Counted from the stretch's first letter, positions 7,721-21,686 are shown. The stretch: 64,000 bases of DNA from Iamia majanohamensis (GCF_028532485.1 NZ_CP116942.1:2480001-2544000); one strand, 5' to 3'. Translations and numbers: made by a program. The notes: generated by a model not told the origin, from the sequence alone.

Positions 7721-8845
7721 TCAGCCGGGGGCCTCGCCCTCGACGACCCGGGCCGTGACCGCCTCCACCACGGCCTCGGCGAGCAGGGCGGCGCCGGCCC
7801 GGTCGAGGTGGACGCCATCGCTCTGGCGCAGCGACTCGCCGTCGGCGGTGGTGGCCTGGTAGCCGTCCTGGTCGGGGCTGAGCACCTCCCGGCTGTCGAG
7901 GAGCTCGACCCAGGGCCGGGCCTCGGCCTCGGAGGCGTAGATCTCGTTCAGCACGCCCATGCGCTCGTCGAAGCCGTCGTCGGCCATGTGGGGCTGGCCC
8001 ACCCACAGCACCAGCCGGCCGTCGCCCCGGAGCTGGTCCATCACCACCCCGACCCGCCGGCGGTACTCCTCCTGCCACTCCGGGTCCGACGGCTGGTACG
8101 AGGTGCCGTCGATCTCCATGCCCTGGGAGTCGTTGGCCCCGAACATGACCACCACGGCCTCGGGCTGCTCGGGCAGCACGTCCTCGGCGAAGTAGGTGGG
8201 CCAGTCGAAGAAGTCGGGGCGGGTGAGCCCGGAGCTCACCTGGGGGTGGGTGGTGATGGCGATCTCGGGCCGGTCGGTGAGCAGCTCCTCGGTGGACTGC
8301 GACAGCTCGATGGTCATGGAGTCGCCGCCCAGCCAGGTGCGCAGCGGGTCGGCCGCGGTGGGCGCCCGGGTGGCGACGGCGGGCTCGGTGGGCCCGGTGA
8401 CCTCGGCCGGGGTCGTGGTGGCGGTGGGGGCCACGAAGGAGTCGGCGCCGGAGGGGTCCTGGTCGCAGCCCTGGGTGGTCTTGTCGGCCGCGTCGCGGAT
8501 GGCGCCCCGGATCTCCTTGATGCGGGTGAGGCCGCCGACCGCGCAGAACGGGGCCACCGCGACCCGGGCCACGTCGCGCTTCCAGCCCACCTGCTGGCGG
8601 TTGGCCAGCTCGGCCATGCCGTCGGCGTTCAGCAGGGCGGCGAGGAAGAGGGCCAGCGCCCCGATGGCGAGGACCCGGCCCGCAGGCTGGGGGCGGGACC
8701 CGGCCAGGTCGTGGTAGCGCAGGGACCGGGGCTCGGAGCGGGGCCGGGTGGGGACGTCGTCGGGGGGGACGGTGCCGTGCTGCTCGCCGTGGGGGCCGGG
8801 GTGCACGCCCTGCCCGGTGGTCCGTCGGGTGTCGGCGTCGGTCAT
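7721..8845 (-). CDS. DUF459-type SGNH hydrolase/acyltransferase, membrane-anchored
   Basis: 374 residues. A single membrane segment (about residues 55-75, GRVLAIGALALFLAALL) follows a polar cytoplasmic N-terminus; the rest should be extracytoplasmic. SGNH blocks are clear: GGDSMT (catalytic Ser, about residue 174), VMFGANDSQGM (Asn), and SDGVHLDRAG (Asp and His). The sequence resembles DUF459 proteins, which often accompany MBOAT proteins and act with them in O-acetylation of polymers. The ATG at 8845 overlaps the GH5 stop as ATGA, giving an MBOAT-GH5-SGNH operon. I infer a periplasmic acetyl-transfer or esterase step in polysaccharide modification; the direction (adding or removing acetyl) cannot be told. 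Confidence 0.85.
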   Translation of the reverse strand: MTDADTRRTTGQGVHPGPHGEQHGTVPPDDVPTRPRSEPRSLRYHDLAGSRPQPAGRVLAIGALALFLAALLNADGMAELANRQQVGWKRDVARVAVAPFCAVGGLTRIKEIRGAIRDAADKTTQGCDQDPSGADSFVAPTATTTPAEVTGPTEPAVATRAPTAADPLRTWLGGDSMTIELSQSTEELLTDRPEIAITTHPQVSSGLTRPDFFDWPTYFAEDVLPEQPEAVVVMFGANDSQGMEIDGTSYQPSDPEWQEEYRRRVGVVMDQLRGDGRLVLWVGQPHMADDGFDERMGVLNEIYASEAEARPWVELLDSREVLSPDQDGYQATTADGESLRQSDGVHLDRAGAALLAEAVVEAVTARVVEGEAPG

Positions 8846-10443
8846 CGGAGCTCCACCCGGTACGGCGAGTCGGTGACCGGGACGGCGACGTCCCAGCCCC
8901 CCGGCACCTGGTCGATCGTCGGCTCCCCCAGCCCGTCGCCCTCGATCGTCGGTCGCCCCTCGCCCGGCACCCAGAGGACCAGGTCGCCGCCGGTGGCCAG
9001 GTCGTCGACGATGCGACCCTCGACGGTGAGGGTGCGGGCGGCCGGGTCCGAGGCCAGCTCGGTGAGCCGGCCGGGCGCGGCCCTCGGGTAGGCCCGGGAG
9101 GCGACCTGCAGGATCTCGGGCGTGGGCCCGGTGTCGACGTCGTCGGGGCAGAGCACGGTGTTCAGCTGCACCTGGGGGGCGGTGGGCGTGGCCCCCGGCG
9201 TGCCCACGCTGTGGGGGTCGCCGCACCACTGCCGCCACTGCCACTGGGCCCCGCCGGCGAGGTGGTCGTCCTGGGCGGCGGCGAAGCGGCGGAGCACCGC
9301 CAGGTCCTCGGCGTCGGTGGAGAAGACGCCGTGCTCGCCGATCCAGAGCGGCCAGCCCCGCTCCTCGGCGGCCTGGGCGGCCACGTCGAAGGTCTGCTCC
9401 ACGGTCGGGATCTCCGGCCCGATGACCTCGGCGTAGTTGTGGGGGGCGAACACGACCTGGTCGTCGGCCACCGCGCCGTCGGCGGGCATGGTGCCGGGGA
9501 GGGGGAACAGCACCATGGGCTCGAGGAACACGATGTGCGGGAAGCCGCCGGCCTCGGCCTCCCCGGCCCGGACCTGGGCGATCACCGAGGTGACCAGCTC
9601 GGTGTACTGGCGGGTGGAGGTCGGCGCGTCGGCCACCACGTTGGGCTCGTTGAGCAGGTCGTAGCCGGCCACCGCAGGGTCCTGGGCGAAGGTCGACGCC
9701 AGCACCCTCCAGGTCGCGGCGAAGGCGTCGCGGATGCCGTCGCGGTTCTCGTAGAAGGCGGCGAAGGCGGCCTTCACCGCGGGGGCGCCCTCCCGGCTGC
9801 CGACGGGCCGGCACGTGTCGGCCCCGTCGGTGAGGGTGGCCCAGGCGGGGGCGCCGTCCCAGCCGATGGCCGGCTCGGTGCCCGCCGGGCAGCGCACGTC
9901 GGGGGGCGAGGCGATGGCCTTGCCCCACGCGTCCTGGTGCATGTCGATGACGGTGTGCATCCCCCGGGCCTCGGCCGCGTCGACGGCCTGCTGGATGCGT
10001 TGGAGGTAGCCGAGGTCGACCTGGCCCCGGGTCGGCTCCAGGGCCGACCACGAGACGAGGAGGCGCACCACCGAGAACCCGGCGGCCGCCATCTGGTCCC
10101 AGTCCTCGTCGGTCGGCGGCCGGGTGGGGGGCAGGAGGAGGTTGGCCTGGAAGTAGTCGCCCAGGCTGTTGAGGTTGGCGCCCCGCAGCAGCACCTCTCG
10201 CCCCTGCTCGTCGACGACGGCGGGACGCTCGCTCTCCCGGCTCACCCGCAGCCGGCCCGGCCCCCCCTCCCCTTCGCCCGTGCCCTCGGCCCCGGGGTCG
10301 GCCACCGAGGTGGTGGTCGTGGCCTCGCCCTCGTCGGGCCCGTCGGCGTCGTCGTCGCCGGTGCACGCGGCGAGGACGAGCACCCAGGCCAGCAGGACGG
10401 CGCCGACCAGGCGGCGGGGGTGCGGGGCGGGGCGGGAGGTCAC
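8842..10443 (-). CDS. GH5-family glycoside hydrolase lipoprotein (endoglycoceramidase-like)
   Basis: 533 residues. An N-terminal signal ends in the lipobox LAAC at about residue 26, so it is probably a lipoprotein, followed by an acidic linker. The catalytic domain has VLLRGANLNSLGD, the HQDAWGK motif, the acid/base Glu in YDLLNEPN (about residue 264) and the nucleophile Glu in WIGEHGVF (about residue 367), as in GH5 endoglycoceramidase-type enzymes. A C-terminal beta domain (last ~90 residues) resembles those found in these enzymes. The GTG start is one base after the MBOAT stop (TGACGTG). In this context it more likely trims or frees the polymer made by the locus than acts on glycolipid; the substrate is unknown. 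Confidence 0.88.
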   Translation of the reverse strand: MTSRPAPHPRRLVGAVLLAWVLVLAACTGDDDADGPDEGEATTTTSVADPGAEGTGEGEGGPGRLRVSRESERPAVVDEQGREVLLRGANLNSLGDYFQANLLLPPTRPPTDEDWDQMAAAGFSVVRLLVSWSALEPTRGQVDLGYLQRIQQAVDAAEARGMHTVIDMHQDAWGKAIASPPDVRCPAGTEPAIGWDGAPAWATLTDGADTCRPVGSREGAPAVKAAFAAFYENRDGIRDAFAATWRVLASTFAQDPAVAGYDLLNEPNVVADAPTSTRQYTELVTSVIAQVRAGEAEAGGFPHIVFLEPMVLFPLPGTMPADGAVADDQVVFAPHNYAEVIGPEIPTVEQTFDVAAQAAEERGWPLWIGEHGVFSTDAEDLAVLRRFAAAQDDHLAGGAQWQWRQWCGDPHSVGTPGATPTAPQVQLNTVLCPDDVDTGPTPEILQVASRAYPRAAPGRLTELASDPAARTLTVEGRIVDDLATGGDLVLWVPGEGRPTIEGDGLGEPTIDQVPGGWDVAVPVTDSPYRVELR

Positions 10444-10444
10444 G

Positions 10445-11860
10445 TCAGAACTGGAAGTAGATGAACGGCGGCACGCCCTCGGGGCCGAGGGCGTTGATGA
10501 GCAGGAGGCAGCCGGCCAGGACCACAGCCTGCACCGCGGGGACGGTCCGGGAGAACGCGGCCTGGGCCCGGTTGACCGCCTCGGTGGGCACGAACTGCGA
10601 CGCGAGCATGGCCACGATCACGAACAGCACCATGGGCGTCACCAGCGGCCCGATGCCGGGGGCGAAGACCAGGCGGAACAGCAGGGTGAAGGCGTTGTCG
10701 AACGACTCGGCCCGGAAGAACACCCAGGCCAGGCAGACCACGTTGAAGGTGATGGCCCAGCGGATGACCGGCGACCACCGGCCCGGCACCTTCCCGGCCG
10801 CCGCCCGCGCCTCGGTCACCCGGCGCTCGATGATGAGGGCGGCGCCGTGGATCGAGCCCCACACCACGAAGGTCCACGCCGCCCCGTGCCACAGGCCGCC
10901 GATCAGCATGGTGAGGAACAGGTTGAGGTCGCGCCGCTGCTCGGTGCCCTGGTTGCCGCCCAGCGGGATGTAGAGGTAGTCGCGCAGCCAGAAAGAGAGC
11001 GTCATGTGCCACTTGCGCCAGAAGGACTGCACCGAGAGGGCGGCGTAGGGCGCGTCGAAGTTCTGGGGGAACCGCAGCCCGAGGAGCAGGGCGCAGCCGA
11101 TGGCGATGTCGGTGTAGCCGCTGAAGTCGGCGTAGATCTGGATGGCGTAGGCGTAGATCGCGACCAGGATCTCGCCCGACCGGTGCGCCTCGGGCACCGC
11201 GAACACGTCGTCAACGATGGCCGAGGCGAGGAAGCTGGAGATGACCACCTTCTTGAACAGGCCGGCCATGATCAGCCGGAAGGCCAGGGCCGAGTTGACC
11301 TTGCGGGGATCGGCCCTCTGCTCCAGCTGGGGGATCAGCTCCCGGGCCCGCACGATGGGCCCGGCGACCAGGTGGGGGAAGAAGGCCAGGTAGACGGCGA
11401 AGTCGAGAAGCGAGGCGGGCTCGGTGTCGCGCCGGTAGGTGTCGATCACGTAGCTCAGGGCCTGGAACGTGAAGAACGAGATGGCCACCGGCAGCAGCAC
11501 CCCGAGCGGCACCCAGCCGGGGTCGATCCCGATGAGGGCGAGGGTCCCCGCCGTCGAGTCGATGAAGAAGTCGACGTACTTGTAGTAGCCGAGCACCCCG
11601 AGGTTGGCCACGACGGCCACGGCCAGCACCGCCCGCCGCCGCCGCTCGTCGTCGGAGGCGGCGATGGCCTTGGCGAAGCCCTGGTTGGCCAGGATCGACG
11701 CCCCCAGGAGCAGGGTGTAGGCGGGGTCGAAGGCGCCGTAGAAGACGAAGCTGGCGGCCAGGAGGAACAGCCGCCACGGGAGCGGGTGGGGCCGGAGCAG
11801 CCAGGAGACGACGAAGACGACGCAGAAGAAGGCGGCGAACTCGAAGGTGGGGAACAGCAA
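10445..11860 (-). CDS. MBOAT O-acyltransferase (AlgI/DltB type)
   Basis: 471 residues with about ten membrane segments. Family signatures: YYKYVDFF, ISFFTFQALSYVID, FFPHLVAGPIVR, ADFSGYTDIAIG, the long FWRKWHMTLSFWLRDYLYIP (20 residues) and GGLWHGAAWTFVVWG, whose His (about residue 323) is the catalytic one. AlgI-type proteins pass acyl groups, usually acetyl, across the membrane to an SGNH partner that modifies an extracellular polysaccharide. The downstream DUF459 protein is the likely partner. The best start is TTG 11860 with CCGGAG eight bases upstream, giving MLFPTFEFAAFF. The gene follows the histidine kinase by 128 bp on the same strand. Confidence 0.93.
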   Translation of the reverse strand: MLFPTFEFAAFFCVVFVVSWLLRPHPLPWRLFLLAASFVFYGAFDPAYTLLLGASILANQGFAKAIAASDDERRRRAVLAVAVVANLGVLGYYKYVDFFIDSTAGTLALIGIDPGWVPLGVLLPVAISFFTFQALSYVIDTYRRDTEPASLLDFAVYLAFFPHLVAGPIVRARELIPQLEQRADPRKVNSALAFRLIMAGLFKKVVISSFLASAIVDDVFAVPEAHRSGEILVAIYAYAIQIYADFSGYTDIAIGCALLLGLRFPQNFDAPYAALSVQSFWRKWHMTLSFWLRDYLYIPLGGNQGTEQRRDLNLFLTMLIGGLWHGAAWTFVVWGSIHGAALIIERRVTEARAAAGKVPGRWSPVIRWAITFNVVCLAWVFFRAESFDNAFTLLFRLVFAPGIGPLVTPMVLFVIVAMLASQFVPTEAVNRAQAAFSRTVPAVQAVVLAGCLLLINALGPEGVPPFIYFQF

Positions 11861-11988
11861 CGCCGTTGCTCCGGGGCCGGGCGGGGACGGCGCGGCGGGC
11901 GCCCGGAGGCCGCCCGCCCCGCCGGAGGTGGCAGGTCAGGGTCTCCGCCTCAGTCTGTCCACCCCGCCACCGGCCCCGGGGGATGGCC
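11861..11988 (-). other. Gap between kinase and MBOAT genes with GC-rich inverted repeat
   Basis: 128 bp with no gene. On the minus strand it carries GGCGGGCG and CGCCCGCC arms around a nine-base loop (near 11895-11919), which could end transcription of the kinase gene or act in the MBOAT leader. It also holds one copy of CAGTCTGT (11951-11958), an octamer found again at 14031-14038 upstream of the kinase. Confidence 0.4.
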
Positions 11989-13998
11989 TCAGGCGCGGGG
12001 CAGCTCCTCGACCGGGACCCGGTCGGCCCCTGCCGGGGCGATCTCGTCGAGCACGGCGGCGAGCCGGTCGACGTCGAGGGGCTTGGCCAGCTGGTGGCGC
12101 ACGCCCAGGGCGGCCAGGGCGTCGGCCCGGTCCGGGGAGAGGTCGGCGGAGACGACGACGACGGGGGTGGACCGGGTGGCGGGGTCGGCGCGGAGCAGGC
12201 GCACCAGGTCCTCCCCGGAGATGTCGGGCAGGTGCAGGTCGGCGAGCACGACCGAGGGCCGGTGGGTCCGGACCAGCTCGCGGACCGCGGCCCCCCGCAG
12301 GGCGGTGACCAGGCGCTCGGGGCGGTCCCGGAAGACCCGCGCCATCAGCTCCAGGTTGGCCGGGTTGTCGTCGACGTAGACCACCACCGGCCGCGACGGT
12401 GAGCCCGCCGCCGCGGTGGGGGTCGCGGCCCCCGCCGTCGGGACGGTCGGCTCCTCCGCGGCCGGCAGGTGGACCCAGAACGTCGAGCCCCGTCCCCGCT
12501 CGCTGTCCACGCCGATGGTGCCGCCCATGGCCTCGACCAGGGTGCGGGTGAGGGCCAGCCCCACCCCCGTGCCCTCGACCTCGGTGTCGCCCGCCCCGAG
12601 GCGCTCGAAGGGGGTGAACAGCCTCTCCTGGTCGGCGGGGCCGATGCCCATCCCCGTGTCGGTGACGGCCAGCCGGGCCGTGCCCTCGGGGCCGGGGCCG
12701 ACGACGACGTCGACGCGCATCTCGGCGTCGTTGTACTTGATGGCGTTGGACACGAGGTTCAGCACCACCTGCTTGGTCCGCTGCTGGTCGCAGAGGGCGT
12801 GGACCCGGCCCTCGTGGCGCACCGTCACCCCGGCCGCCTCCGCCTGGGGCGCCATCAGGGCCAGGCAGTCGGCCACGACCCGGTCCAGGGCCACCGGCTC
12901 GAGCGACAGCGAGAGGGCACCGGACTCGATGCGGGCGATGTCGAGGACCTCGTTGATGAGCCCCAGCAGGTGGCGGCCGGAGACCACGATCTGGTCCACC
13001 GCCTCGCGGTCGTCGGGGGCCAGGTCCTCCATCTGCAGCAGCTGCCCGAAGCCGAGGATCGAGGTCAGCGGGGTGCGCAGCTCGTGGCTCATCCGGGACA
13101 GGAAGTGGTCCTTGGCCTGGGTGGCGCGCAGGGCCTCGTCCCGGCTGCGGGCCATGGTCGCGGCGCGCTGCTCGAGCAGGATCGACGTGCGCAGCAGCTC
13201 GTCGGTCATGCGCCCCAGCTCGTCGCCCGACGCGGTCGCGGGCTCGAGCGGCTCGCCCCGCGCCAGGTGCCGGGCGTTCCGCTCGACGGCGGTCGCCCGC
13301 CGACCGATGCCGGTGCCGATGATCCCGACGCTCACCACGCCGGCCAGCAGGCTGACGGCCAGCCCGGCGGCCACGACCAGCTGGGCGCGCACCGTGAGGG
13401 CGTCGGCCTCGGCCCGGTGGTCGAGGAGCTCGGCCCGCACGCGGGCCTGGAGGTCGTCGACGGCCTGGCGGGCGGCGTCCATCCGCTCCTTGGCGGCGAG
13501 GAGCGCGGCCTCCCGCAGCGGCCCGTCCGGCGGGGCCGCGTCCACGAGGGAGACCACCGCGGCCGCCGCCGCGGCCGACCGGCCGTCGACCTCGTCGGCG
13601 ATGCCGCCGTCGGCGCCGAGGGCCGCGTCGAGGTCGGTGCGGGCCCGGCGCAGATCCCGGCTGGCGTCCAGGTAGGGCTCGAGCAGCTCCTGGTCGTCGG
13701 TGGCGAGGTAGCCCCGCATGCCGGTCTCGGCGTCGACCAAGCTGAGCTCGAGGCGCGACAGCGCCCCCAGGGCGTCGTTGTCGGCCCGCAGCTCGCGGCG
13801 CACGTCCGCCTGCCGGTCCTGGACGACGGCCACCGCGATGCCGGTCGGGACCAGCCACACCGCGGGCAGGAGGACGGCCACCACCAGCTTGCGCCGGAGG
13901 GGCGCGTCGCGCCAGGCCCGGCGGAGGCGGCCTCCCGGGGCGGGCAGGAGGGTCGGGACGTCGTCGGGGTCCGGCACGTCCGGGACCGAGGGGGCCAT
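11989..13998 (-). CDS. Hybrid sensor histidine kinase (CHASE3-HAMP-HisKA-HATPase-REC)
   Basis: 669 residues from ATG 13998, with GGTGAGGAC just upstream. Order: cytoplasmic Arg-rich start, membrane segment (about 38-58), a CHASE3 sensor domain (LSLVDAETGMRGYLATDDQE), second membrane segment (about 205-230), HAMP, HisKA with phospho-His in FLSRMSHELRTPLTSILGFG, HATPase with NLVSNAIKYND (N box), DTGMGIG (G1) and GTGVGLALT (G2), then a Pro/Ala linker and a C-terminal receiver domain with YVDDN and phospho-acceptor Asp in VLADLHLPD and Lys in LAKPLD. It is divergent from the REC-PIG-L gene 127 bp away, which is its probable target; no HPt protein is seen. The ligand of CHASE3 is unknown. Confidence 0.93.
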   Translation of the reverse strand: MAPSVPDVPDPDDVPTLLPAPGGRLRRAWRDAPLRRKLVVAVLLPAVWLVPTGIAVAVVQDRQADVRRELRADNDALGALSRLELSLVDAETGMRGYLATDDQELLEPYLDASRDLRRARTDLDAALGADGGIADEVDGRSAAAAAAVVSLVDAAPPDGPLREAALLAAKERMDAARQAVDDLQARVRAELLDHRAEADALTVRAQLVVAAGLAVSLLAGVVSVGIIGTGIGRRATAVERNARHLARGEPLEPATASGDELGRMTDELLRTSILLEQRAATMARSRDEALRATQAKDHFLSRMSHELRTPLTSILGFGQLLQMEDLAPDDREAVDQIVVSGRHLLGLINEVLDIARIESGALSLSLEPVALDRVVADCLALMAPQAEAAGVTVRHEGRVHALCDQQRTKQVVLNLVSNAIKYNDAEMRVDVVVGPGPEGTARLAVTDTGMGIGPADQERLFTPFERLGAGDTEVEGTGVGLALTRTLVEAMGGTIGVDSERGRGSTFWVHLPAAEEPTVPTAGAATPTAAAGSPSRPVVVYVDDNPANLELMARVFRDRPERLVTALRGAAVRELVRTHRPSVVLADLHLPDISGEDLVRLLRADPATRSTPVVVVSADLSPDRADALAALGVRHQLAKPLDVDRLAAVLDEIAPAGADRVPVEELPRA

Positions 13999-14125
13999 GT
14001 CCTCACCATCGGTCCGCCCCTGCCGACATCCAGTCTGTGACCCGACGAGATCTGGCCCCGCGGAGGGTGGTCGTCGGGCCCCGGCGTCCCCCGGGCGGCC
14101 GCCTGCCCACGGCGAGGAGCGAGCG
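13999..14125. promoter_or_regulatory. Divergent control region of kinase and REC-PIG-L operon
   Basis: 127 bp between two divergent start codons, so it must hold both promoters. It contains a less GC-rich stretch around 14025-14055 with the octamer CAGTCTGT (14031-14038), repeated in the kinase-MBOAT gap. A GAGGAGC ribosome binding site precedes the plus-strand ATG at 14126. No convincing -35/-10 pair was found. Confidence 0.45.
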
Positions 14126-15208
14126 ATGACGACCAGCCCCCCACCCGGTGCGGCCCGGGTCCTGGTGGTGGAGGACGACGCCCCCACCCGGGCCTACGTG
14201 ACCCGGGCCCTCCAGCGCGCCGGCTACACGGTGGCCTCCGAGGCCGCCGCCGCCCCCGCCCTGGCCACCCTCGACGAGGCCCCGTGGTCGGCCCTGCTGG
14301 TCGACATCGGCCTGCCCGGCGCCTCGGGGTTCGACCTGGTGCGCGAGGCCCGGCGCCGCCGCCCGGAGGTGCCCATCGCCCTCATGACCGCCGACGCCAG
14401 CGTCGAGGTCGCGGTGCGGGCCCTGCGGAGCGAGGTCGACGACTTCCTCACCAAGCCCATCTCCCCCGAGGACCTGGTCGCCCAGGTCGGCCGCCTCGTC
14501 GCCCTGCGCCGGACCCGCACCACCACCCCGGTCGAGCGGGTGCTCGCCATCGGCGCCCACCCCGACGACGTGGAGATCGGCGTGGGCGGGGTGCTGGCCG
14601 GCCACCAGGACGCAGGCGACGACATCACCCTGCTCACCCTGAGCCACGGCCAGCGGGGCGGCGACCGGGCCGCCCGCGCCGCCGAGGCCGAGCGGGCCGC
14701 CGCCCTCCTCGGGGCGACCCTGCGGCTGGGCGACCTGGAGGACACCCTGATCCCCGAGTCGGGCCCGACCCTCGACCTCATCGAGGCCACCGTGGCCGAC
14801 GTCGACCCGACGATCGTCTACACCCACACCGTCAACGACCTGCACCAGGACCACCGCAACGTCCACCGGGCCTCGATGGTCGCGGCCCGCGGCGTGCCGA
14901 GCGTCTACTGCTACGAGAGCCCGTCGGCCACCGTCGACTTCCGCCCCGTGCGCTTCATGCCCATCGACCGCATGGTGGAGCGCAAGCTGGCCCTGATCGC
15001 GGCCTACGACAGCCAGGCCGCCGTCCGCTCCTACCTCGCACCCGACCTGGTCCGGGCGACCAGCCGCTACTGGGGCCGCTACGGCAGCCGCGACGTGGAC
15101 CACTGCGAGCCGCTCGAGGTCGTGCGCGAGCGCCCGGCCGGGAGCCGGGCCGGCGACGCCCTCCTCACCACCACCCCCCAGCAGGAGACCTCCGATGCGA
15201 CTGCCTGA
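14126..15208 (+). CDS. Response regulator receiver fused to PIG-L (LmbE) deacetylase
   Basis: 360 residues. Residues 10-128 form a receiver domain: acidic pair Asp17/Asp18, phospho-acceptor Asp60 in LLVDIGLP, Thr88 and Lys110 (FLTKPIS). After a short linker, residues 138-330 are a PIG-L/LmbE zinc de-N-acetylase domain: AHPDDVEIG (144-152; His and Asp zinc ligands), THGQRGG-like SHGQRGGDRAARAAEAE, and the later His ligand region HQDHRNVH. The family removes acetyl from N-acetylglucosamine-type sugars. A receiver domain joined directly to this enzyme implies phosphorylation-controlled deacetylation. First gene of a five-gene operon with an ATP-grasp, PHP, GT2 and small membrane protein. Confidence 0.92.
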   Translation: MTTSPPPGAARVLVVEDDAPTRAYVTRALQRAGYTVASEAAAAPALATLDEAPWSALLVDIGLPGASGFDLVREARRRRPEVPIALMTADASVEVAVRALRSEVDDFLTKPISPEDLVAQVGRLVALRRTRTTTPVERVLAIGAHPDDVEIGVGGVLAGHQDAGDDITLLTLSHGQRGGDRAARAAEAERAAALLGATLRLGDLEDTLIPESGPTLDLIEATVADVDPTIVYTHTVNDLHQDHRNVHRASMVAARGVPSVYCYESPSATVDFRPVRFMPIDRMVERKLALIAAYDSQAAVRSYLAPDLVRATSRYWGRYGSRDVDHCEPLEVVRERPAGSRAGDALLTTTPQQETSDATA

Positions 15209-16217
15209 CGTCCGCGGGGCGCGCCCCGCACGCGTGCTGGTCACCGGCGCCGGCGGACCCGCCGCGGTGGCGTTCATGGAGGCCGTCGACGACGGCGAGA
15301 CCGAGCTGTGGGCCGTCGACATCGACCCCCACGCCGCCGGCCTCTACCTCGTCGACGCCGCCCACCGCGGCCTCGTCCCCCGCGGCGACGACCCCGACCT
15401 CGTCCCCGTCCTGGTCGACCTCTGCTCCCGGCTCGGGGTCGACGTGCTCGTCCCGACCGTCGACACCGAGCTGCTGCCGGTGGTCGACGCGTCGTCCCGC
15501 TTCGCCGCCGTCGGCACCGCGGTGCTGGCCAGCTCCCGTCGGTCGCTCGCCACCTGCCTCGACAAGTGGGCCCTCCACCAGGCCTGCGTGGGGGCGGTGC
15601 CGGTGCCCGAGACCCACCTCCTCGACACCGACCTCGACGGCGCCGCCCTGGCCTGGCCCCGCATCGTGAAGCCTCGCTCCGGCAGCGGCTCCCGCGGGGT
15701 CGAGCTCCTCGCCGGGCCCGACGACCTGGTCGGTCGGCCCCGCGACGGGAGCCTGATCCTCCAGGAGGTGCTGCCCGGCACCGAGCTGTCGCTCGACGTC
15801 CTGGCCCGCGCCGACGGCCACGTGGTGACGGTCGTCCCCCGCACCCGGCTGAAGGTGGACTCCGGCATCGCGGTGGCGGGCTGCACCGTCGCCGACCCCG
15901 CCCTCGACGCCCTGGGCCGGGCCGTCGCCGCCCGGGTCGGGATCACCTCGGTGGCCAACGTCCAGGTGAAGCAGGCCGCCGACGGCGGCCACCGCCTGCT
16001 CGAGGTCAACCCCCGGCTCCCCGGCAGCATGCCCCTGACCGTGGCCAGCGGGGTGGACATGCCGACCCTGGCCCTGGCCGACGTCCTCGGCCACCCCGTG
16101 GCGGACCACGTGGGCTTCACCCCCCGGGCCATGGTGCGCAGCTGGCGCCAGACCTTCCTCCCGGTGGAGGAGTACGAGGCCACCGGCGCCGTGCCCGTGC
16201 CCGAGGTGGCGTCGTGA
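15195..16217 (+). CDS. ATP-grasp ligase (CarB/PylC-like)
   Basis: 340 residues; overlaps the preceding gene by 14 bp. The N-terminal Rossmann-like pre-ATP-grasp domain has VLVTGAGGPAAVAF; the ATP-grasp core has the nucleotide-binding IVKPRSGSGSRGVELL and ILQEVLPGTELSLDVLA, and the metal-binding LLEVNPRLPGSMPLT. These enzymes join a carboxylate, activated as acyl-phosphate, to an amine. The closest general type is the CarB-like/PylC-like single-chain ligases. In the operon, one product of the deacetylase would be a free amine, so ligation to an amino sugar is an attractive but unproven role. GTGA overlap with the next gene. Confidence 0.88.
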   Translation: MRLPDVRGARPARVLVTGAGGPAAVAFMEAVDDGETELWAVDIDPHAAGLYLVDAAHRGLVPRGDDPDLVPVLVDLCSRLGVDVLVPTVDTELLPVVDASSRFAAVGTAVLASSRRSLATCLDKWALHQACVGAVPVPETHLLDTDLDGAALAWPRIVKPRSGSGSRGVELLAGPDDLVGRPRDGSLILQEVLPGTELSLDVLARADGHVVTVVPRTRLKVDSGIAVAGCTVADPALDALGRAVAARVGITSVANVQVKQAADGGHRLLEVNPRLPGSMPLTVASGVDMPTLALADVLGHPVADHVGFTPRAMVRSWRQTFLPVEEYEATGAVPVPEVAS

Positions 16218-16987
16218 CCGGGCCGGTGACCCCCCTCGACGTCCCCCTCTTCGACCGGGGGTCGGACCTGCACGTGCACTCGACCTTCTCCGACGGGGCC
16301 AGCACGGTCGAGGAGAACCTGGCCTCGGCCCGGGACCACGGCATGCACACCCTCGGGATGGTCGACCACGTGCGACGGGACACGACCTACCTGCCCGACT
16401 TCGCCGCCGCGGTGCGGGCCCTCGACGGCACCGCCGGGCTGCGGGTCCTGCTCGGCGTGGAGGCCAAGGTCCTCGACGTGGCCGGCGCCGTCGACCTGCC
16501 GCCCGCCCTGCCCGACCTCGACTACGTGCTGGTGGCGGACCACCAGGTGCCGCGGCCCGACGGCCCGGCCCACCCCCGCGACGTCCGCGCCGCCCTCGAG
16601 GTCGGCGACCTCACCGCCGCGGTCGTCATCGACGACCTGGTGGAGGCGACCGTCGCCTCCTTGGCCTGCTACGACCGCGTCGTCCTGGCCCACCTCTTCA
16701 GCATCCTGCCCAAGTGCGGGCTGCACGAGGACCAGGTCCCCGACGCCCTCGTCCGGCGCCTCGGCCAGGCCGTCGCCCGCGCCGGGGCGGTGGTGGAGAT
16801 CAACGAGAAGTGGACCTGCCCGTCGGTGCGGGTGGCCTCGGTCCTGGCCGACTGCGGCGTGCGCATCACCCTCAGCACCGACGCCCACCACGAGTCCCGG
16901 GTCGGTCGCTACGACGCCTACGTCGACGCCGCCGCGACCGAGGTCGAGGCCCGGGCGGGCACCGCCGCGGCCACCCCGGCGCACTGA
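16214..16987 (+). CDS. PHP-domain metal-dependent phosphoesterase
   Basis: 257 residues from GTG 16214, which overlaps the ATP-grasp stop as GTGA. Metal ligands of a PHP domain are clear: DLHVHSTFSDG (two His, Asp), MVDHVRRD, GVEAKVLD, VLVADHQ, VLAHLF and STDAHH at the end, the full ligand set of the HisK/YcdX type. Likely a soluble phosphatase acting on a small phosphorylated molecule. No second domain. Context suggests work on a precursor or signal of the polysaccharide locus, but histidinol-phosphatase-like activity is not excluded. Confidence 0.88.
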   Translation: MTGPVTPLDVPLFDRGSDLHVHSTFSDGASTVEENLASARDHGMHTLGMVDHVRRDTTYLPDFAAAVRALDGTAGLRVLLGVEAKVLDVAGAVDLPPALPDLDYVLVADHQVPRPDGPAHPRDVRAALEVGDLTAAVVIDDLVEATVASLACYDRVVLAHLFSILPKCGLHEDQVPDALVRRLGQAVARAGAVVEINEKWTCPSVRVASVLADCGVRITLSTDAHHESRVGRYDAYVDAAATEVEARAGTAAATPAH

Positions 16988-16994
16988 GGTCCCC

Positions 16995-18482
16995 GTGGCC
17001 CGCGACGTCCTGCTGGGGCTGCTGGTGGTGGTCGCCGTCGCCGGGGCCGCGCCCCTCCTGATCGGCATCTACCAGTACCTGCTGGTCGGGCTGCACGCCC
17101 ACCGCCACCACCTCGACGAGACGGGCCCCGACCTGCCCCGCACCGCAGTGCTCATCCCGGCCTGGAACGAGGCCGACGTCCTCGCCACCACCATCCACCA
17201 GCTCATGCGCCTCGACTACCCGCGCGACCGGCTGGTGGTGGTCGTGGTCGACGACGCCAGCACCGACGCCACCGGCGAGGTCCTGGCCGCGCTGGCCGCC
17301 GAGCACCCGGGCATGGTCGTGCACCTCCGACGGGAGGACGGGGGCCAGGGCAAGGCCCACACCCTGAACCACGGCCTCCGGGCGCTCCTCGCCGATGGGT
17401 GGATGGAGGCGCTGCTCGTGATGGACGCCGACGTCGTCTACGAGCCCGACTCGCTGCGACGCATGGCCCGCCACCTGGCCGACCCCGAGGTCGGGGCGGT
17501 CACCGCCTACATCAAGGAGGGCAGCGAGGGCGGCTCGTACCTCACCCGGTTCGTGGCCTACGAGTACGTCACCGCCCAGGCCGCGGCCCGCCGGTCCCAG
17601 CACGCCATCGGGGCCATCGCCTGCCTGGCCGGCGGAGCCCAGCTCCACAGCCGGGCCAACCTGGAGGCGCTGGGCGGCCAGATCGACACCAGCACCCTGG
17701 CCGAGGACACCATCACCACCTTCGAGACCCAGCGGGCCGGGCGCAAGGTGGTCTTCGAGCCCCACGCCGTCGTGTGGGCCGAGGAGCCCGGCGACATCAC
17801 CGGGCTCTGGAAGCAGCGCCTCCGCTGGGCCCGGGGCAACGTGCAGGTCACCCGGCGCTACAAGGGCCAGTGGCTGCGCCCGTCCACGGTGCACCGCCTC
17901 GGGTCGGTGACCTTCGCCCTGCTCTGGTTCGCCACGCTCCTCCTGCCGGTCGTGATGATCACCTCGGCCGCCGCCCTGGTGGCGCTGTGGGGCCTCGACC
18001 GCGACCTCTCCACCGACGCCTTCCGGGCCCTGTGGATCGTCAACGCCCTCGGGTTCGTCTTCACCACCACCTTCGCCCTGCTCCTCGACCCCTCGACCAC
18101 CCGGCGGGCGTGGAAGGAGGCCGTCCTCTTCCCCGGGGTGATCTCGCTCTTCGTGATTCTCCACGCCTGCGTGCCCGCGGTGTTCCGCAGCGCGGCCGGC
18201 GCCGCGACCGACCTCACCGGCATCAGGCTGGGGACCGAGGGCAGCGACCTGTTCCTGCTGGCCGCCTACCTCTGGGTGGCCGTCTGCATGCCCGCGTCCT
18301 GGCTGGCCAAGCGCATCGACCAGGCCGGCTTCCGCCGCCTGGCGGGCGTGCTGGTGTACGTCGTCGGCTACGGGCCGATCCTGTGCGCGGTGACCTTCGC
18401 CGCCTACGTGGCCGAGGCCCGGGGCGCCGAGCAGCGCTGGGACAAGACGGTGAAGACCGGGAAGGTGGCGGCGCGCACGTGA
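16995..18482 (+). CDS. Processive family-2 glycosyltransferase (membrane polysaccharide synthase)
   Basis: 495 residues. N-terminal membrane segment (about 5-33), cytoplasmic GT-A domain, then about five C-terminal membrane segments. Catalytic motifs of BcsA/PgaC/hyaluronan-synthase type: VVVDDAST (first Asp), MDADV (DxD-like), LAEDTITT (the TED-like base) and QRLRWARGN (QxxRW, the mark of processive synthases). It would extend a beta-linked polysaccharide from UDP-sugar and push it across the membrane. With a PIG-L deacetylase gene in the operon, a GlcNAc polymer is the leading guess. GTG start seven bases after the PHP stop; overlaps the next gene as GTGA. Confidence 0.93.
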   Translation: MARDVLLGLLVVVAVAGAAPLLIGIYQYLLVGLHAHRHHLDETGPDLPRTAVLIPAWNEADVLATTIHQLMRLDYPRDRLVVVVVDDASTDATGEVLAALAAEHPGMVVHLRREDGGQGKAHTLNHGLRALLADGWMEALLVMDADVVYEPDSLRRMARHLADPEVGAVTAYIKEGSEGGSYLTRFVAYEYVTAQAAARRSQHAIGAIACLAGGAQLHSRANLEALGGQIDTSTLAEDTITTFETQRAGRKVVFEPHAVVWAEEPGDITGLWKQRLRWARGNVQVTRRYKGQWLRPSTVHRLGSVTFALLWFATLLLPVVMITSAAALVALWGLDRDLSTDAFRALWIVNALGFVFTTTFALLLDPSTTRRAWKEAVLFPGVISLFVILHACVPAVFRSAAGAATDLTGIRLGTEGSDLFLLAAYLWVAVCMPASWLAKRIDQAGFRRLAGVLVYVVGYGPILCAVTFAAYVAEARGAEQRWDKTVKTGKVAART

Positions 18483-18745
18483 GCGACCCCCGCGAGCAGG
18501 TCGACGCGACCCTGCCCCTCCTCGACCTCACCGGCGCGCGCCCGCCCCGGCCCGACGCCGTCGTCGCCCCCCCGCTCCCCGCCGCCGCCCCGCTGCCGGT
18601 GGCGGCCGGCCCCACCGAGGCCGAGCGCCACCGGGCCGAGGTCGACGAGGACCGGCGGGCCGAGCGTCGCCTGCTGCTGCTCGAGGCCCTCGCCCTGCTG
18701 GCGGTGGTGCTGGTGGTGGTCGTGCGCGCCCTCTGGCTGGGCTGA
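18479..18745 (+). CDS. Small single-pass membrane protein
   Basis: 88 residues from GTG 18479 (GTGA overlap with the GT2 stop). The first ~45 residues are Pro/Ala-rich, then a charged helix ([16 protein letters not shown]), then one hydrophobic segment ([20 protein letters not shown]) at the extreme C-terminus: a tail-anchored topology with a cytoplasmic N-terminus. Not a family I recognise; it may be an accessory subunit of the synthase, comparable in size and position to PgaD-like helpers, but without sequence evidence. Confidence 0.7.
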
Positions 18746-18768: not shown

Positions 18769-20400
18769 TCAGGCGGTGGGCAGCTCGTGGTCGGCGAAGG
18801 TGGTGCGGAGGTCCTTCTTGGAGAACTTGCCGACGGAGGTCTTGGGGATCTCCTCGACGAACACCACGTCGTCGGGCATCCACCACTTGGCCACCTTGCC
18901 GTCGAGGAACTCGACGATCTCGTCGCCGGTGACCTCCTCGCCCTCGGCGACCACGACGCAGGCGAGGGGCCGCTCGCCCCACTTCGGGTGCTTGACCCCG
19001 ATGACCGCGGCCTCGGCCACCTTGGGGTGGCCCATGATCTCGTTCTCCAGCTCGACGGTCGAGATCCACTCGCCGCCGGACTTCACCACGTCCTTGGTGC
19101 GGTCGACGATGCGCATGTAGCCGTGCTCGTCGATGGTGGCCACGTCGCCGGTCTTCAGCCAGCCGTCCTCGGTGAAGGACTCCGGCGACCGGTCGTCGTG
19201 GTAGTACTCCCGCGCGATCCACGCCCCCTGGGCCTGGATCTCGCCCTGGGCCTGGCCGTCGGCGGCGACGGGCTCGAGCGTGTCGGGGTCGACGATGCGG
19301 AGGTCGACGCCGCACACCGGCACGCCGATGGTCGCCCGCAGGTCGGCCAGCTCCTCCTCCGGGCGGTCCCGGAGGGTGGACTTGACGTGGCCGGCGGAGG
19401 CGACGGGGCTGGTCTCGGTCATGCCCCAGGCCTGGAAGATGGGCAGGCCCGTCTTCTCCCGGTAGGCCTCCGAGAGCGACTTGGGCACGGCCGAGCCGCC
19501 GCACGGGATGGCCCGCAGGGCCGAGGTGTCGCGGCCCTCCAGCTCGGGCAGCACGCCCATCCAGATGGTGGGCACGCCGGCCGCGATGGTGACCTTCTCG
19601 GTCTCGATCATCTCGGCCAGGGCCTTCGGGTTCATGTTGGGCCCGGGCATCACCAGGTCGGCACCGGTGGCCACCGCCGAGTGGGCCAGGCCCCAGGCGT
19701 TGGCGTGGAACATGGGCACCACCGGGAGGATGGTGTCGGTCTCCGAGGCGCCGATGGCGTCGGCCGCCATGGTCCCCATGGTGTGCAGGTAGCTCGACCG
19801 GTGGGAGTAGACGACGCCCTTGGGGTTGCCGGTGGTGCCGGACGTGTAGCACATGCTCGCCGCCTGGTCCTCGTCCCGGACGTCCCACCCCACGGGGGAC
19901 GCCGCGGCCAGGAGCTCCTCGTAGTCGTGGACCTCCTTGCCGTCCGGCGCCTCGTCGGGCACGTCGCCGGCGCCGTCGTCCATGACCACGATGTGGCGCA
20001 CCGTCTCGAACGTGGGCAGCAGGGGCCACACCGCGCCGGCGAGGGAGCGGTCGATGAACACGACCTCGTCCTCGGCGTGGTTGGCGATGTAGGTGAGCTG
20101 CTCGGGGAACAGCCGGATGTTGAGGGTGTGGAGCACCCGGCCGCTGCACGGGGCCGCGAAGTAGAGCTCGAGGTGGTTGCCGGAGTTCCACCCGAAGGTG
20201 GCCACCCGGCCGTCGTCGGAGATCCCGAGGGTGTCGAGGACACCGCCCAGGCGACGGGTGCGGTCGGCCCACTCGCCGTAGCTGCGGCGCTCGCGGCCGG
20301 TGGCCGTGGCGGTGACCACCCCCTTGTCGGCGAACAGGCGCTCGGCCCGGTCGAAGAAGTGGACCAGGGTCAGCGGGTGGTCCTGCATCAGGCCCTGCAT
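18769..20400 (-). CDS. AMP-forming acyl-CoA ligase (medium/long-chain FadD type)
   Basis: 543 residues. Adenylate-forming enzyme: P-loop-like [16 protein letters not shown], aromatic motif [21 protein letters not shown] (A7), [15 protein letters not shown] (A8 hinge) and the C-terminal catalytic Lys in [13 protein letters not shown]. This set fits fatty-acid or related carboxylate-CoA ligases of about 540 residues. GGAGGAA lies upstream of the ATG at 20400; a second ATG four codons later is possible. It is monocistronic on the minus strand, convergent with the polysaccharide operon and divergent from the second ligase. Substrate chain length cannot be read from the sequence. Confidence 0.92.
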
Positions 20401-20513
20401 GGGGGGTTCCTCCGGAGACTGCGGGGGGCGGGCCCCCGACCGTACCGTCCGCGGGGCCGACCTGTGCCCGCCGTCACCGGGCGGGCCCGCCGCCGCCCCG
20501 TACCCTCGGCCCG
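20401..20513. other. Divergent intergenic region between two acyl-CoA ligases
   Basis: 113 bp holding a leadered start for the minus-strand ligase and a leaderless-type TACCCT hexamer for the plus-strand one; otherwise nothing recognisable. Confidence 0.4.
20501..20506 (+). promoter_or_regulatory. Putative -10 hexamer of leaderless transcript
   Basis: TACCCT preceded by CCCCG and followed by seven bases and the GTG at 20514; no ribosome binding site is present. Same arrangement as upstream of Rrf2 (39046) and ileS (47626). Confidence 0.45.
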
Positions 20514-21686
20514 GTGGGAGCCCTCGTCGCCGTCGCCGCCCGGGGCGGGCCCGGCTTCGTCGAGGTCCTCCGCCGCACCTGGGACGACGGCGACGCCGTC
20601 CTGCCCCTCGACCCCCGCCTGCCCGCCCCCGTGCTGCGTCGGCTCGTGACCGTGCTCCAGCCCACGACCCTCGAGACCCTCGGGGGCACGGTCGACCCCG
20701 CGCTCCTCGACGGCATCGACGGCACCAGGACCCTCGACGGCGACGCCCTGGTGGTGCCCACCAGCGGCACCACCGGCGAGCCCAAGGGCGTGGTCCTCAC
20801 CCACGACGCCCTGGCCGCCCACGCCGCCGCCGTCCACGACCACCTGGGTGCGACCTCGTCGGACCGCTGGCTGGCCTGCCTGCCCCTCGCCCACATCGGG
20901 GGCCTCGGCGTGGTGGTGCGGGCCCTGGTCGACGGCCTCGGCCTCGAGGTCCACCGGGGCTTCGACGCCGGCGCGGTGGCGGGCGCCCGGGAGGCGGGCG
21001 CCACCCTCACCTCGCTCGTCCCCACCGCCCTCGACCGGGTCGGGGCCGACGGGTTCCGCTGGGTCGTGCTGGGCGGGTCGGCCGACACCGTCGCCCGGCG
21101 CCCCGCCAACGTGGTGCGCACCTGGGGCCTGACCGAGACGGGCGGGGGCGTCGTCTACGACGGGCGTCCCCTCGCCGGGGTGGAGGTGGCCGAGGTCGAC
21201 GGCGAGCTCTGGGTCCGCTCCCCCACCCTCGCCCGGGGTGTGCGCCGGGCCGACGGCAGCACCCGCGACCTGCGGCGCCCGCTCCCCCACGACCGGGGCA
21301 GCACGGGGTGGCTGGCGACCGGGGATGCGGGAGAGGTGGCGGCCGACGGCACCGTGACGGTGCGCGGCCGCACCGACGACATGGTCGTGACCGGCGGCGA
21401 GAACGTCTGGCCCGACGCGGTCGAGGCCGTGCTCCGCCGCCTCCCCGCCGTCGACCAGGTGGCCGTGGCCGGCCGGCCCGACCCCGAGTGGGGCCAGCGG
21501 GTGGTGGCGTGGGTGGTCCCCGTCGACCACCGCCCGCCCCCCACCCTCGACGGCCTGCGGGCCGCGGCGCGCGCCGAGCTCCCGGCCTACGCCGCTCCCC
21601 GGGAGCTGCGCCTGGTCGACCACCTGCCCCGGACCCCGCTCGGCAAGGTGCGCCGGGCCGACCTCCCCGACGCCGCGCCCGACTGA
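20514..21686 (+). CDS. Short AMP-forming ligase (MenE-like)
   Basis: 390 residues, much shorter than usual acyl-CoA ligases because the N-terminal subdomain is reduced, as in actinobacterial MenE (o-succinylbenzoate-CoA ligase). Motifs: VPTSGTTGEPKGVVLTHDA, CLPLAHIGGLGV, TWGLTETGGG, GWLATGDAGEVAADG, GRTDDMVVTGGENVWP and the catalytic Lys in TPLGKVRRADL. No men genes flank it, so the assignment to menaquinone synthesis rests on length and motif pattern only; another aryl or acyl acid is possible. Start GTG 20514, candidate leaderless. Confidence 0.85.
   Translation: MGALVAVAARGGPGFVEVLRRTWDDGDAVLPLDPRLPAPVLRRLVTVLQPTTLETLGGTVDPALLDGIDGTRTLDGDALVVPTSGTTGEPKGVVLTHDALAAHAAAVHDHLGATSSDRWLACLPLAHIGGLGVVVRALVDGLGLEVHRGFDAGAVAGAREAGATLTSLVPTALDRVGADGFRWVVLGGSADTVARRPANVVRTWGLTETGGGVVYDGRPLAGVEVAEVDGELWVRSPTLARGVRRADGSTRDLRRPLPHDRGSTGWLATGDAGEVAADGTVTVRGRTDDMVVTGGENVWPDAVEAVLRRLPAVDQVAVAGRPDPEWGQRVVAWVVPVDHRPPPTLDGLRAAARAELPAYAAPRELRLVDHLPRTPLGKVRRADLPDAAPD

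Follow-up and report, generated by a model that had tools for sequence, protein, structure and literature searches.

Two unrelated systems adjoin in an 11-kb stretch of the Iamia majanohamensis genome (one 4.58-Mb contig), and we consider it probable that they are, side by side, a surface-polysaccharide operon (kinase, phospho-switched receiver-PIG-L deacetylase, ATP-grasp ligase, PHP phosphoesterase, GT2 synthase and TM subunit) and an O-acylation cassette. The operon is scattered widely across bacteria, and its product is probably a sugar polymer that is exported to the cell surface; we infer the polymer, its substrates and the direction (sign) of phospho-control. Codon-usage gene calling in the window, by which we mean the whole 64,000-nucleotide stretch analysed, gave nine genes across positions 7721-18745:

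7721-8845, minus strand: DUF459/SGNH protein, partner of the MBOAT (PF04311, 2e-53; sub-cut-off PatB match)
8842-10443, minus strand: GH5 lipoprotein, between MBOAT and SGNH (PF00150, 2e-25)
10445-11860, minus strand: MBOAT O-acyltransferase, of the separate system (PF03062, 6e-31)
11989-13998, minus strand: CHASE3-HisKA-HATPase-REC hybrid kinase, divergent from REC-PIG-L (Pfam)
14126-15208, plus strand: receiver-PIG-L deacetylase (REC-PIG-L), 360 aa, cytosolic (PF00072 and PF02585)
15195-16217, plus strand: ATP-grasp ligase, PF15632/PylC-like N-terminal (Pfam/NCBIfam)
16226-16987, plus strand: PHP phosphoesterase (PF02811)
16995-18482, plus strand: GT2 polysaccharide synthase, QxxRW type, multi-TM (family models and motifs)
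18479-18745, plus strand: 88-aa protein with one C-terminal TM segment, probable synthase subunit (position after GT2)

Gene calling together with Pfam and NCBIfam family searches bore out every gene name given in the initial annotation, and all of the named genes exist and lie where it had placed them; the 88-aa TM protein matched no Pfam or NCBIfam family. Same-strand neighbours overlap or almost touch, the exception being a 128-bp gap between kinase and MBOAT. REC-PIG-L likely starts at the ATG at 14126, with a Shine-Dalgarno-like GAGGAG immediately 5'. Beyond the nine genes lie AMP-ligases at 18769-21686, for which no tie to the operon was seen in relatives, and shikimate and prepilin-peptidase genes before 7666.

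The operon is first of all a conserved unit. A search of public genomes with PIG-L gave at least 80 loci, and the receiver-fused form was found at no fewer than 35 loci besides the window's own; several of these rows share one genus and cannot all be taken as independent. The named relatives include Acidimicrobiia/Ilumatobacteraceae records, one of which (L048) is the same locus as that of G043, a genome in the same order as that of the window. Among the matches listed, REC-PIG-L, ATP-grasp, PHP and GT2 follow one another in this order on one strand at 21 of 35 loci, all of them in Actinomycetota, which argues that the gene order is not due to chance, and the earlier grouping of these four genes with the kinase stands. 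Another 10 of the 35 listed loci carry REC-PIG-L and ATP-grasp but are arranged otherwise, lack PHP or GT2, or lie on cut contigs; the remaining four (L012, L036, L038 and L041) have kinase and REC-PIG-L alone, with no synthase, ligase or PHP relative detected nearby; at these the PIG-L may act on a target other than this polymer. Among the hosts are Microbacterium, Leucobacter, Cellulomonas, Blastococcus, Ilumatobacteraceae, Thermoleophilia and Frankiaceae, and PHP-less versions occur in Marinicella, Legionella and Rhodospirillales/Alphaproteobacteria. Within its own class REC-PIG-L is rare, with matches in three of 296 genomes besides its own, one of which (G028) matches over the PIG-L part only. 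The operon as such is also rare, since a GT2 profile found just two carriers, the genome itself and one Ilumatobacteraceae genome, in a phylum sample of 396.

The MBOAT, GH5 and SGNH genes form an O-acylation cassette separate from the synthase operon. Their catalytic residues are in place (MBOAT His325; SGNH GDS, GxND and DxxH; GH5 NEP and GE), and MBOAT and SGNH constitute an O-acyltransferase pair, here with GH5 between them. SGNH relatives were found in 108 of 296 class genomes, its own included, and MBOAT is adjacent at 28 of 29 sampled Acidimicrobiia SGNH loci; neither GH5 nor the REC-PIG-L operon was found within the 1.5-kb flanks of any of these 29. GH5 relatives (22 loci in 16 other genomes) had no MBOAT or SGNH alongside. 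The initial annotation had proposed that both halves serve one polymer, and the same reading can be put as MBOAT, SGNH and GH5 modifying and trimming the GT2 product in this genome, relatives differing. The halves do adjoin here, the kinase lies between them on the MBOAT strand and 128 bp away, and yaiO-yaiX-yaiP-yaiS of E. coli likewise joins an acyltransferase, a GT2 and a PIG-L. Against this, the halves are neighbours in none of the 35 relatives among the matches listed, which is the very outcome that the annotation had named as counting against its claim: flanks of up to 10 kb, scanned at E 0.1, held no convincing MBOAT, GH5 or SGNH match at any of these other REC-PIG-L loci, the scan giving one match at chance level. 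The MBOAT-SGNH pair is moreover present in many Acidimicrobiia genomes without the synthase operon, GH5 is unlinked elsewhere, and in the three other genomes of the class that matched PIG-L, SGNH lies on other contigs. A single polymer is hence improbable, and we dropped it on the gene neighbourhoods in relatives. Nor is it supported that MBOAT, GH5 and SGNH belong to the kinase-linked system, as had been suggested, since MBOAT and SGNH are a pair of their own elsewhere and GH5 is linked to neither of these two in relatives.

Two observations on this cassette may be added. The GH5 gene (8842-10443) overlaps or abuts both its neighbours, an arrangement absent from the sampled relatives, and its product matches an endoglycoceramidase model below the cut-off. 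The same genome also has a second MBOAT, 45% identical to the first (L149, G000:C1:251656-252729), with no SGNH match within its 1.5-kb flanks.

In REC-PIG-L both active sites, that of the receiver and that of the deacetylase, are conserved. The receiver has the phospho-Asp, Thr/Ser and Lys of response regulators, and among the matches listed these are kept in 34, 33 and 31 of 35 relatives, respectively, with a degenerate receiver at two loci, L046 and L047. The PIG-L part has its HPDD and HxxxDxxxDH residues, and the metal/catalytic set is complete in 35 of the 35 relatives listed. The AlphaFold model (pLDDT 91) was used in a fold search, where the PIG-L part resembled BshB and diacetylchitobiose deacetylase and the receiver part CheY-like domains; the two seem to be combined in none of the best 50 solved structures that the search listed. 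No DNA-binding domain was found by Pfam, so the output should be enzymatic, and neither a signal nor a TM segment was found, so the deacetylase is expected to work on a cytosolic precursor or on one at the inner membrane face, and not on exported polymer. The neighbouring enzymes likewise have conserved residues: the PHP protein has HxH...DxH, its expected metal ligands being invariant in all 18 aligned rows, and the ATP-grasp alignment has 40 invariant columns, core residues among them, in a gene that is conserved next to REC-PIG-L in relatives.

We assign the kinase to REC-PIG-L and not to MBOAT on the evidence of locus L012, where the same divergent position is occupied by a CHASE3 kinase with 44% identity to that of the window. 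Among the matches listed a histidine kinase lies near REC-PIG-L at 26 of 35 loci as compared to 5 of 46 receiver-less PIG-L loci (Fisher p=6e-9), the two sets differing in taxa and flank lengths; no kinase was found within the flanks at nine of the 35 listed REC-PIG-L loci, one of which is a 7.6-kb contig. Because the receiver keeps its phosphorylation site, the earlier suggestion that the kinase could switch the deacetylase directly is plausible, and we assume direct His-to-receiver phosphotransfer from the neighbouring kinase to REC-PIG-L. Hybrid kinases often act through an Hpt relay, and a stand-alone receiver gene lies between synthase subunit and kinase at five loci (L023, L024, L026, L035 and L037) in Microbacterium, a Micrococcales MAG and Cellulomonas; this is possibly a phosphorelay step. 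In Marinicella (L025:9-2224) an H-NOX haem protein and a hybrid kinase are divergent from REC-PIG-L, ATP-grasp and GT2, which suggests that polymer modification responds to nitric oxide or oxygen.

With regard to the synthase, the initial annotation took the GT2 for a processive enzyme, and this agrees with the predicted protein, which carries the D, DxD, ED and QxxRW motifs of membrane GT2s in synthase-dependent exopolysaccharide systems (here D/DAD/AED/QRLRW), with several C-terminal TM helices. QxxRW is found in every cassette GT2, and these enzymes form a 27-row clade of their own (support 100/99) apart from PgaC, IcaA, NodC, BcsA and YaiP, the tree leaving its placement relative to PgaC/IcaA, NodC, BcsA and YaiP unfixed (63/21 with regard to PgaC). 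The predicted GT2 structure can be superposed over most of its length on hyaluronan and cellulose synthases, and the best single PDB match is an archaeal mannosyltransferase, 6yv7. Among the matches listed, about 22 of 27 relatives have a short ORF that starts at the GT2 stop and encodes a C-terminal TM segment; the GT2 of two Legionella carries a segment resembling the small TM protein at its own end. The small TM protein is the best candidate for a PgaD/IcaD-like subunit, and may be an analogue of PgaD/IcaD, although it matched no model of the PgaD/IcaD subunit of PNAG systems.

Could the product be poly-GlcNAc, the example given in the initial annotation? A divergent pga/ica system would account for PgaC_IcaA being the best NCBIfam model of the GT2, for the small TM protein beside the synthase and for a PgaA-like porin in diderms. 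However, the GT2 scores 145.7 bits against a cut-off of 422.3, the cassette GT2s stand in their own clade, and the operon has no CE4 deacetylase of the PgaB/IcaB kind, its sole deacetylase being a PIG-L that lacks an export signal. We therefore regard poly-GlcNAc as very unlikely. YaiOPS was also considered, and orthology of the GT2 to it was ruled out by identity, by the lack of QxxRW in YaiP and by the position of YaiP outside the cassette clade.

A further alternative is that the GT2 is non-processive and transfers one GlcNAc onto a membrane lipid; after deacetylation by PIG-L an amino acid would be added by ATP-grasp, and the product would be an aminoglycolipid under kinase control. PIG-L and HpnI/HpnK are precedents of GlcNAc transfer to a lipid plus deacetylation, the GT2 matches the HpnI model (3e-18), its best PDB match is the mannosyltransferase, and a cytosolic PIG-L suits a substrate at the membrane face. 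Invariant QxxRW, the several C-terminal TM helices, PgaC/IcaA as best family model and the TPR/beta-barrel partner of diderm loci speak for polymerisation instead, and we think the lipid product unlikely, if less so than the alternatives above.

That partner provides the strongest argument for an exported polymer as product. Among the matches listed, a TPR protein is encoded in the gene cluster at all six diderm loci of sufficient completeness (L025, L039, L040, L042, L044 and L045), with a C-terminus that is barrel-like where its sequence was read, the barrel being judged from sequence. PgaA and BcsC also combine TPR and barrel, and monoderm loci are without such a protein, as expected. The linkage in diderms points to exopolymer export.

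On the preferred reading of a surface-polysaccharide operon, the membrane GT2, assisted by the small TM protein (cf. PgaD/IcaD), would polymerise an amino-sugar nucleotide and pass the chain out, a TPR/beta-barrel porin being added for export in diderms. The cytosolic PIG-L would strip N-acetyl from a hexosamine precursor, either soluble or lipid-linked; the amine so exposed may then be coupled to a carboxylic or amino acid by the ATP-grasp ligase, and PHP would take off a phosphate. Phosphorylation of the receiver by the kinase would govern the deacetylase directly, as in CheB. The biosynthesis of mycothiol (MshB/MshC) and bacillithiol (BshB/BshC) is a known case of deacetylation with subsequent ATP-driven ligation, and this precedent suggests that PIG-L exposes the amine which ATP-grasp acylates. 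Receiver-less cousin loci carry an exosortase and the UDP-GlcNAc epimerase WecB, which agree with an N-acetylhexosamine exopolymer. More tentatively, and as a possibility only, we propose a class of exopolymers in which a sensor sets charge via deacetylase phosphorylation and ATP-grasp aminoacylates the amine before or during polymerisation; if true, a two-component sensor would switch the polymer from N-acetyl to a free or an aminoacylated amine.

Control of bacterial surface polysaccharides is usually exerted through transcription, or through c-di-GMP that acts on the synthase. The receiver-deacetylase fusion, found from Actinomycetota to Legionella, would bring polymer chemistry under the direct control of a sensor kinase and, if the kinase acts on the deacetylase, would allow that chemistry to be changed without gene regulation. 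Being compact and present in cultured genera (Microbacterium, Cellulomonas, Leucobacter and Blastococcus), the operon is open to testing.

In the open-access papers that we searched, neither the operon nor a PIG-L serving as receiver output was found to be described, and a classification of synthase-dependent operons mentions neither PIG-L nor ATP-grasp (PMC7112194). Among the closest systems are the receiver-less cassettes of Geodermatophilus, Actinoplanes, Catenulispora and other Actinomycetota (L053, L054, L055, L058, L059, L060, L064, L070, L079, L083 and L014), which comprise PIG-L, GT2, an exosortase-like protein, ATP-grasp and usually WecB. They share the combination of GT2, PIG-L and ATP-grasp but have no receiver, no PHP match and mostly no kinase, and their GT2 falls in another clade. 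The left half of the window is an MBOAT/SGNH pair like PatA/PatB, DltB/DltD and AlgI/AlgJ-X, but with GH5 inserted and with scores under the named family cut-offs. E. coli yaiO-yaiX-yaiP-yaiS also has a GT2, a PIG-L and an outer-membrane barrel gene, and YaiS is 34% identical over 167 aa, whereas YaiP is only 26% identical and without QxxRW, and receiver, ATP-grasp and PHP are missing there. PgaABCD/IcaADBC resembles the operon in its QxxRW GT2, adjacent small TM protein, TPR/beta-barrel porin in diderms and operon deacetylase; it differs in that the synthase described here lies in another clade and under the family cut-off, in that its deacetylase is an exported CE4 as compared to a cytosolic receiver-fused PIG-L, and in that our operon adds ATP-grasp, PHP and a neighbouring two-component partner. 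CheB, which appeared in the fold-search results, and other response regulators with enzyme outputs likewise carry an N-terminal receiver on an enzyme, but here the output is a PIG-L N-deacetylase, which would join the enzyme outputs of response regulators. We infer that the operon is a new variant among synthase-dependent exopolysaccharide systems.
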